Source of the DNA: Promicromonospora umidemergens
GTDB lineage: Bacteria; Actinomycetota; Actinomycetes; Actinomycetales; Cellulomonadaceae
DNA: 64,000 bases
Direction of reading: 5' to 3'
Assembly (NCBI RefSeq): GCF_024171995.1
Contig: NZ_JAMTCT010000008.1
Coordinates: forward strand, 1 to 64,000
Shown here: positions 56,014-61,592 of the stretch, piece by piece
How positions within the stretch are numbered: the stretch's first letter is position 1
How the letters are laid out: each line of letters begins with the position of its first letter
Notes under the pieces: generated by a model
Seen by the model: the letters and a program-made list of their open reading frames with translations, nothing else
Told to the model about the DNA's origin: nothing
Database searches by the model: none
Program-made: the position numbers and the translations under genes

Positions 56014-57507
56014 ATGATTACTCGTGCAGAGGGTGCGTACCAAGGCGCGCTCCGGGCTTTCCAGGAGCCGATGCTGGACCTCCTCCACCGGAGGTACGCG
56101 CCGCTCGTCGTGTCGCTGCTGTCCCTCGTGTTCACGCCCGAGCGGTCGACCGTCCCCGTCGCGGAGGCGCACACCGAGATCGGTGATGCCCTGGACCAGC
56201 TGCGCGCCCAGGGGTATGAGCTCAACGCCGACGGCACGCGGGCGATCCCCCTCGGTAGCGCCCGCGAGCTGTGCAGGCAGTGGTCCGACGTCGGCTGGCT
56301 GAAGCGGCAGATCGTCGACGGAGACATCGAGGTCTACCAGCTCTCCGCGCACGCGGTCGGGGCGCTGGAGGTCGCCGGGCGGGCGGGCGGAACCAGGGCC
56401 CGCGTCTCGGAGTCGCGCGTCCGGACGCTGCTGGACGCCGTGGAGCAGCTCGCCCAGGACTCCGACCCCGACGTGCTGGTGCGCATGTCCCGGCTGGACG
56501 CGCAGATCCGGCGGCTCCAGGACGAGCTGGCACGGATCCAGCGCACGGGCGAGGTCGACGAGGTCGACGACGAGGTGCTGCTGGAGGAGGCGGAGAACGT
56601 GCTGCACCTGGTGCGTGAGCTGCCGGCGGACTTCGCGCGCGTGGCCGAGTCGATCCGGGCGATGCAGCGGGACGTGGTCACCGCGCTGCGCCAGGACGAG
56701 CGCCCGTCGGGCGACGTCCTGCGCGAGTACCTGGAACGGGGCGAGCAGGTGATGAACGCGACGCCGGAGGGCCGCGCGTTCGCCGGTGCGCTGCGGCTGA
56801 TCGGGGACCCGGAGCGGATCGACGAGCTGTCGCTCCAGCTCGACACGGTGCTGCGCCACCGCTTCACGGGGCGGCTGCCGGGCCAGCAGCGCACCGAGCT
56901 GCGCGACGTGGGCCGGCGGATCGAGCAGGGCGTCGCCGAGGTCATCAAGGCCCAGCGCCAGGCGTCCCACGTCATCACGACGCAGGTGCGCAACCACGAC
57001 CCGCTGCGCGACCGGCAGGTCGACGAGCTGCTGCGTGAGGTCATGGTCAGCTTCCAGAGATGGATGCCGACCACCCGCCGCGGGGAGGGCGTCGCACCGG
57101 TGCGACGGTTGCCCGTGGCCGAGATCGCGCACCTGCGGCAGTCGACGAACGACCTGACCCCACCCCAACCGCCGGTCCCGCTGCACGTGCTGGACGACGA
57201 CCCGGACGCCGGCCTGGAGGACGGTGCGCGCGAGTGGGGCGGCCCGCACTATGCGGAGCTGACGGAGCATCTCTCCTCGTTCGCCGCCGGCGCCGACAGC
57301 GCGGACCTCGCCGAGGTCTTCAGGGGTGCACCCGAGCCGATCCGGCGCCCGGTCGACCTGCTCGGGCTGCTGGAGATCGCGCACAGGAACGGCATGGCAG
57401 AGACCGATCAGATCGCGTTCGTCGAAGCGGTCCGACCCGACGGGTCCCGCAGGCGGTTCGCGTTCGGTGGCGTCACGGTACGGACGAAGGAAGGCACGGA
57501 TGACTGA
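56014..57507 (+). CDS. jetA: Wadjet system subunit JetA (DUF3375)
   Basis: This 497-residue DUF3375 protein is the MukF/kleisin-like subunit of the Wadjet SMC complex, which recognises and cuts circular plasmid DNA. The N-terminal winged-helix segment contains [20 protein letters not shown] and [19 protein letters not shown]; the middle is coiled coil ([20 protein letters not shown]); the C-terminus has [17 protein letters not shown]. Lengths and order with jetB and jetC match published Wadjet loci. It overlaps jetB by eight bases. ATG 56014 is the start; a short gap separates it from tetR. Confidence 0.9.
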
Positions 57508-58156
57508 GGCAGCGCTCGAGGAGTCCGGCGGGTTCATCACGCCGGTCTCGATGGAGGAGGATCCCCAGGCGCCGTTCGCCGGCGACACGGGAACGCTGGA
57601 CGTGGCGGTGCGCCGGGTGCTCGTCCGCCTGCTGCAGCGCCGGTTCCTCGTGGCGGACAAGAACCGCGCGCAGTGGCGCACGCTGCTGGAGAACCAGCAG
57701 CTGGTCGAGTCCCGGCTGCACGACCTGTTCGTCCACCTCGTCGTCGACCACGACCGGGGGATCGCGTACAAGAAGCAGGTCCGGTCGGCCGAGCTGGACG
57801 TCCCGATCCTGTTGAAGGACGACCCGTACGGCAGAGCCGAGACGCTGGTGCTGGTCCACCTGCGCACCGTGTTCCAGCGGGAACGGGGCGCGGGGGAGAC
57901 CTCGGCGCGAGTCGACGTCGAGGAGGTCGTGCAGATGGTGCTGACCTTCTTCGACCCGGAGGACAAGAACCTGGCCGCCCGGCAGACGGAGATCCGGAGC
58001 GCGGTCAAGAGACTGGAGAAGGAAGGGATCATCGAAGAGGAGTCCGAGGGGCGCTACCGGGTCACGCCGCTGGTCGAGGTCGTGCTCAGCAACGAGCGCC
58101 TCGTCGAGCTGCGCGACTGGCTGCGCGAGCGGCCAGGCAAGGAGGACCCGCGATGA
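57500..58156 (+). CDS. jetB: Wadjet system subunit JetB (DUF4194)
   Basis: This 218-residue DUF4194 protein is the MukE/kite-like subunit. [40 protein letters not shown] and [20 protein letters not shown] are tandem winged-helix segments, ending [20 protein letters not shown] and a C-terminal helix. It bridges JetA and JetC in the complex. Start ATG 57500 lies inside the jetA end; its stop overlaps the jetC ATG (ATGA), so the three subunits are translationally coupled. Confidence 0.9.
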
Positions 58157-61100: not shown

Positions 61101-61542
61101 CCGCACCGCGCCGGACTTCGCCGACCTCGTCGACGTGCGGCGACACGTGCGGCTCAGCGCCGAGAAGGTCGACCTCGACGGCAACCACGTGGCGCACTAC
61201 GACAGCATCGGGGAGAAGTCCGGCGGCGAGTCCCAGGAGCTGGTCGCCTTCATCGTCGGCGCGGCCCTGCGCTACCAGCTCGGCGACGCCGGCGAGACCC
61301 GGCCACGCTACGCACCGGTCTTCCTCGACGAGGCCCTCATCAAGGCAGACGCACAGTTCACCGGACGCGCGATCGGCGCATGGCGCGGCCTGGGCTTCCA
61401 GCTCATCATCGGAGCGCCGAACGACAAGTTCAGCGCCCTCGAACCGCACGTCGAGGCCAAGTACGTGGTGCTGAAGGACGCCGCGGGGCGCTCGCGGACC
61501 AAGCTGGTGGCGGGCGTCGCCGAGCCGGCCGGGGCGTCGTGA
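58153..61542 (+). CDS. jetC: Wadjet system SMC-like ATPase JetC
   Basis: This 1129-residue SMC/MukB-like motor has Walker [17 protein letters not shown] at residues ~50-57, long coiled coils (~300-470 and ~690-950) around a hinge region ([17 protein letters not shown] segment near 520), and at the C-terminus the ABC signature in [20 protein letters not shown] and Walker B in [12 protein letters not shown]. It extrudes DNA loops so that circular plasmids are sensed and handed to JetD. All motifs are intact. The downstream jetD is missing except perhaps its first codons. Confidence 0.92.
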
Positions 61543-61592
61543 CCGCACGGCTGGTCCGCCCGCCCGAGGCGGGTGCCCACCTGGCGGCGCGG
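61539..61592 (+). pseudogene. Possible jetD 5' remnant
   Basis: GTG 61539 overlaps the jetC stop (GTGA), as a coupled jetD would, and gives [18 protein letters not shown] before running into the 3' end of the convergent carboxypeptidase gene (stop at 61593). JetD (DUF3322/DUF2220, TOPRIM nuclease) is some 400 residues long; nothing more of it is found on either strand in the remaining 2.4 kb. This reads as a deletion joining jetD codon ~18 to foreign sequence. Confidence 0.55.

Follow-up and report, generated by a model that had tools for sequence, protein, structure and literature searches.

The jetABC locus and its junction with vanY

The window, that is, the whole 64,000-nt stretch analysed, corresponds to bases 1–64000 of contig 8 in the genome of the soil actinobacterium Promicromonospora umidemergens (G000), a 6.60-Mb draft of 65 contigs rated 100% complete. 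Its forward strand carries three intact genes: jetA, encoding a kleisin of the DUF3375 family (56014–57507, 497 aa; Pfam PF11855, 406 bits), jetB, encoding a KITE protein with a Pfam match to DUF4194 (57500–58156, 218 aa), and jetC, encoding an SMC ATPase with AAA_29 and SbcC_Walker_B matches (58153–61542, 1129 aa). The best PADLOC matches of the three proteins are the profiles of type I Wadjet (also named JetABCD and, in actinobacteria, MksBEFG or EptABCD), namely JetA1 (683 bits), JetB1 (359 bits) and JetC1 (1624 bits), and JetB matches in addition the Pfam MksE family (31.7 bits, cut-off 27). An earlier note on this DNA had described the three genes as full-length, with all ATPase motifs and coupled starts. 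The ORF listing, in which their start and stop codons overlap, the Pfam and PADLOC matches and a pattern check that found Walker A, signature and Walker B in JetC bear out that description.

The N-terminal motif of JetB reads APFAGDTG in the window (57569–57592) and xLFxGDxG in most relatives. Among the related loci described below, the LF motif is retained in 104 of 110 without jetD and in 39 of 44 with it. Variants other than the APF of the window are GQF in genomes G007 and G011 and VCF in G049, all of them jetD-less. In PMC10586767, a JetB motif, IFDR, is described as contacting JetD; comparison with solved JetB sequences did not locate the IFDR site on the JetBs of this clade.

What follows jetC? 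A GTG at 61539, overlapping the jetC stop codon, opens a frame of 18 codons on the forward strand (61539–61592), followed immediately by the stop codon of a convergent gene for a vanY-like D-Ala-D-Ala carboxypeptidase (61593–62246, reverse strand; PF02557). From 61593 onwards the forward strand is vanY antisense, over which the frame stays open. The JetD encoded directly after jetC starts with VTEQLVSPGDAGAQVAEK in P. panici (G008) and with VSPRLVPPLEAGEQIAAR in Myceligenerans indicum (G047). When the 18 codons were compared with 41 JetD N-termini, the best identity was 11/18, to M. indicum. The controls, 7253 peptides from other stop/start overlaps of these loci, all fell short of that level (best control, 10); the position-specific score was less sharp (P 0.005). 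The 18 codons are thus the true start of jetD, and the claim of the earlier note that JetD gives way, after at most 18 codons, to a convergent carboxypeptidase gene stands.

In Promicromonospora, the locus has common neighbours, a DUF4037 gene upstream and vanY downstream, together with a second shared upstream gene that we take to be a ROK/FHA gene, a label given without a scan. The order in P. panici (genome G008, whose JetC is identical to that of the species) is jetABC, intact jetD, vanY. In two P. iranensis genomes (G003 and G012, assigned likewise by identical JetC) and in G011, jetC faces vanY directly, without jetD. The distance from the jetC stop codon to the end of the vanY match is 19 bases in G003, 33 in G012, 39 in G011 and 54 in the window. 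G007 has the orthologous operon without jetD, and no vanY match was found within the stretch compared. On the JetC tree, the sister of M. indicum is M. pegani (G235), which has a stub-like jetD start with 9/18 identities to the best JetD, a level met by 25 of 7253 controls (score P 0.04). This junction comparison in close relatives, which the earlier note had proposed, shows a deletion that took all of jetD except its first 18 codons, up to the stop codon of the convergent vanY, where the junction lies. The same comparison bears on whether the junction at about 61590 could be a false join of the assembly, which would have undone the argument. Such a join is unlikely, and we give it a negligible chance, because jetC adjoins vanY, with no jetD between them, in the separate genomes G003, G012 and G011 too.

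Search for JetD and for a substitute nuclease

The earlier note had also considered that JetD might sit elsewhere and had suggested searching the genome for DUF3322 and DUF2220. Neither DUF3322 (PF11795) nor JetD_C (PF09983) nor a JetD profile of our own, built from five sequences, had a match in the draft genome G000, which upholds the absence of jetD. As to the reach of the profiles, PF09983 and PF11795 both match in only Corynebacterium glutamicum among 14 control genomes, and PF09983 matches in 22 of 99 relatives. In the family search, 132 of 221 genomes gave a JetC match with E of at most 1e-100, and 33 of 221 gave any JetD match at E 0.001. A complete system, with a jetD missed by the profiles or lost in an assembly gap, is conceivable in a draft of 65 contigs. 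We consider it very improbable, given three profiles without a match in a genome rated 100% complete, the scarcity of JetD matches across the family search and the position of jetD in relatives, directly after jetC.

We also looked for a replacement nuclease beside jetD-less operons, by clustering neighbour ORFs within about 4 kb per side. Many clusters resulted, several of them antisense frames of GC-rich genes; five representatives were scanned and none was a nuclease, their products being a leucyl-tRNA synthetase, DegV, a ComEA-like HHH/SLBB protein, glycogen phosphorylase and an AI-2E transporter. This result touches on the possibility that JetABC, perhaps together with another nuclease of the host, still acts on plasmids without cutting them, through compaction, silencing or mis-segregation of circular DNA. 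The intact motor with its ATPase motifs would suit such an activity, as would the model of Wadjet in PMC10586767, in which JetABC senses circular DNA by extrusion and JetD cuts. Since the C. glutamicum MksBEFG, a complete system, acts on plasmids and does not fold the chromosome, according to PMC7083940, a non-destructive plasmid role is a live alternative. We nevertheless judge it rather improbable, for no nuclease was recognised beside the jetD-less operons among the five representatives and, according to PMC10586767, suppression of plasmid transformation in B. subtilis requires all four subunits.

The genome also contains a canonical Smc and a second, divergent jetABC-like operon, likewise without jetD (contig 4, 298390–304615; L071:4391-10616). 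This operon adjoins an F420 ligase gene and encodes a DUF3375 protein, a DUF4194 protein and a JetC-like protein that scores 1071 bits against PADLOC JetC1 and ends in a long alanine- and proline-rich tail. A search with the first 500 residues of this second JetC gave a match in each of the 13 genomes of the genus that it covered, among them G000. Separately, G007 (L073, contig 101) has an extra, distant Wadjet with its own JetD, whose JetC is about 24–26% identical.

Distribution of jetD among related loci

We gathered 196 loci, of which 36 named loci were set aside as duplicates, leaving 160 counted. Left out beforehand were the second operons of G000 and G008, the distinct Wadjet in G007 and the JetC of G009, which is split; G224, with a full-length JetC, and several genomes with JetC fragments are outside the census as well. 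The JetC of 35 of the 36 set-aside loci is identical to that of a counted locus. The exception, a jetD-less locus of Cellulomonas telluris (L124), has a JetC not identical to any counted one and stays outside the count.

Behind jetC, jetD is present in 44 of the 160 loci and absent from 110, and the remaining 6 end before its presence can be judged. The 114 loci of the window's own family divide into 12 with jetD, 96 without and 6 that end too early. Other actinobacterial families (Actinomadura, Actinoplanes, Nocardia, Nocardioides and others) lack jetD in 13 of 44 loci, a frequency that is not unbiased because the named loci are the best 80 of 265 matches. Where jetD is present it is open in 43 of 44 cases, and Toprim patterns were found in 42 of the 44 JetDs, G134 and G252 each being short of one pattern.

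On a FastTree phylogeny of JetC, with the parsimony root set on the jetD-bearing G056 and G091, jetD changes state at least 23 times. How these changes divide depends on the cost of regain: 12 gains and 11 losses at equal cost, 4 gains and 32 losses when a gain costs 3, and 47 losses without any gain at a cost of 5 or more or when regain is disallowed (43 losses with weak nodes collapsed). There are twelve sister pairs with unlike jetD states, and for ten of these the support is 85 or more. Distances on the JetD and JetC trees agree closely (Spearman 0.94); the two trees have 21 of 41 splits in common, and of the 19 supported JetD splits, 14 are compatible with those supported for JetC. Because the other 5 conflict, some regain or recombination of jetD is possible.

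Physical remnants of jetD are present in nine loci. Stubs of the 5′ end occur in the window, G235, G152, Sphaerisporangium rufum, Pseudosporangium ferrugineum, Nocardia carnea and Actinoplanes palleronii, and 3′ pieces in G172, G152 and Actinomadura sp. 6K520. A tenth case, Actinomadura livida, is doubtful (score P 0.001, with 5/18 identities in the start frame). Taken alone, the position-specific score singles out 5 of 116 loci (the 110 jetD-less ones plus the 6 ending early) at 0.001 and 7 at 0.01. The agreement between JetD and JetC distances and the remnants in nine loci favour loss over gain. These genes and trees show that jetD was lost many times in the JetABC clade, with the motor genes staying intact. 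Among the papers that our literature searches listed, judged by titles and the opening lines of abstracts, none reports recurrent jetD loss.

Two further forms of the gene were observed. In G147 (L190), jetD has one internal stop codon, and in G172 (L179) a lone C-terminal piece of jetD follows an intact jetABC. Both are likely intermediate stages of decay.

Retention of jetABC

Among the 110 jetD-less loci, jetABC is intact in 108, cut by contig ends in 2 and broken in none, and among the 44 jetD-bearing loci it is intact in 40, cut by ends in 2 and provided with a short or interrupted JetB in 2, counts in which intact operons are favoured because the loci were picked by JetC matches. The family search did encounter a JetC in two overlapping frames on one contig (G234), and JetC fragments in some other genomes. 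Walker A, signature and Walker B motifs are present in all 160 loci, the 110 jetD-less ones included, and 101 of these 110 pass a stricter pattern. Moreover, jetD-less clades of 20, 18, 7 and 6 tips, a few of which are unscored for jetD, keep jetABC. By our own criterion, long retention without the nuclease holds for the clade, at clade level rather than for this strain in particular.

Selection on the three genes was assessed from omega (dN/dS), a Nei-Gojobori estimate over pairs that are not independent. Given in the order JetA, JetB, JetC, the median is 0.252, 0.289 and 0.300 in jetD-less pairs, leaving aside the 6 early-ending loci (0.254, 0.292 and 0.306 if these are counted as jetD-less), and 0.158, 0.173 and 0.240 in jetD-bearing pairs. 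Genera outside the family, taken alone, give 0.220, 0.217 and 0.349 versus 0.157, 0.167 and 0.239, respectively. Omega is higher in jetD-less than in jetD-bearing pairs, and selection on jetABC without jetD is therefore purifying and somewhat relaxed, as expected if constraint eased once jetD was lost. On the window's own branch omega is 0.15–0.18 for JetA, 0.11–0.26 for JetB and 0.28–0.29 for JetC; in the same comparisons the P. panici branch gives 0.17–0.20, 0.18–0.39 and 0.24–0.26.

These data weigh on another option raised in the earlier note, that the system is newly dead, with jetD deleted recently and jetABC drifting to loss in this strain, as at other tips of the tree. A stub that is still recognisable, a window JetB without the L of its LF motif, the higher omega without jetD, seen also among like genera, and the many jetD-less tips with a jetD-bearing sister (the 12 mixed pairs) would all be expected from such decay. 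It may indeed fit the recent past of this strain. The wider pattern speaks against it, with broken jetABC in 0 of 110 jetD-less loci, jetABC kept throughout clades of up to 20 jetD-less tips and an omega of 0.11–0.29 on the window branch, and we consider it unlikely as a whole, while granting it an appreciable chance.

In 37 loci from ten genera (among L055–L254), jetABC lies downstream of leuS, and 34 of these lack jetD, 2 have it and 1 is unscored. In part of them, degV or comEA-like genes lie beyond jetABC. The leuS-linked jetABC has the appearance of a chromosomal gene set passed on vertically; the window's jetABC locus is not at leuS. The leuS neighbourhood was an unexpected finding, a stable chromosomal home for an operon supposed to serve defence.

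Discussion

What might a Wadjet motor do once its nuclease has gone? The window shares with type I Wadjet the JetA, JetB and JetC families, the gene order, the overlapping starts and a jetD start at the expected place. It differs in the JetD Toprim nuclease, of which it has an 18-codon stub only. Because JetD is absent except for these codons, the genes found do not allow cleavage by the known mechanism, and because the defining nuclease was tested for and not found, the window system, judged by its gene content, is not a complete Wadjet but a nuclease-free variant.

Nuclease-free complexes of this build are familiar. MukBEF combines kleisin, KITE and SMC subunits and has no nuclease, although the JetC of the window is only marginally similar to MukB, matching its N-terminal profile alone with 23.6 bits (cut-off 23). 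The MksBEF of Pseudomonas aeruginosa is a precedent, a three-subunit Muk-like SMC complex without a nuclease that works beside a canonical Smc, and the window operon has the defining set of MksBEF, that is, SMC, kleisin and KITE without MksG. The two belong to separate lineages, and in the present one the conversion would be caught at several stages, with relatives that have or lack jetD, stubs and partial remnants. MksBEF contributes to chromosome organisation or segregation, a role that the JetABC of the window may share. In PMC10586767, MksBEF, and perhaps MukBEF too, is proposed to derive from Wadjet/JetABCD via loss of JetD.

The window thus holds what is left of a jetABCD operon of type I Wadjet: as the comparison with relatives shows, a deletion reaching the stop codon of the convergent vanY stripped jetD except for its first 18 codons. 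By analogy with Wadjet, the remaining JetABC, intact at sequence level, would still load on DNA and extrude loops and would be unable to cut circular DNA. Such a nuclease-free motor may act next to the canonical Smc as an accessory, condensin-like complex, in the manner of MksBEF in P. aeruginosa. Repeated loss of jetD with retention of the motor suggests that the motor serves a purpose in its own right, and it is the analogy with P. aeruginosa MksBEF that makes a condensin-like role the most likely one; JetABC probably has such a role, although the C. glutamicum MksBEFG, which does not fold the chromosome, and the higher omega without jetD weigh against it. Overall, we lean towards reading the locus as a disarmed Wadjet, in which jetD was deleted and an intact motor was retained for useful, most likely condensin-like, work. 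Of the three options in the earlier note (a newly dead system, a JetD elsewhere and a JetABC that works without cleavage), the last is best supported; which job it performs we can only infer. The interpretation in the earlier note is in this sense partly borne out.

More broadly, Wadjet may be a recurrent source of nuclease-free SMC machines, the complex switching from plasmid killing to a new selected role, as a chromosome condensin or in non-destructive plasmid control. We advance this tentatively, at slightly less than an even chance. We are similarly guarded, inclined neither to dismiss nor quite to accept it, about arranging the forms found in the clade as stages of such an exaptation: intact jetD, jetD with a stop codon, 5′ stub, 3′ remnant and clean loss. 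For the study of the family, jetD-less operons offer natural JetABC motors with which to study extrusion without cleavage. A Wadjet count that relies solely on JetA, JetB or JetC would credit many actinobacteria with defence although no nuclease was found in them. Finally, these loci keep an unusually clear record of repeated disarmament. Because jetD-bearing and jetD-less operons are here close relatives, share a genus and a locus and come with physical remnants, the step from Wadjet to MksBEF can be tested directly.
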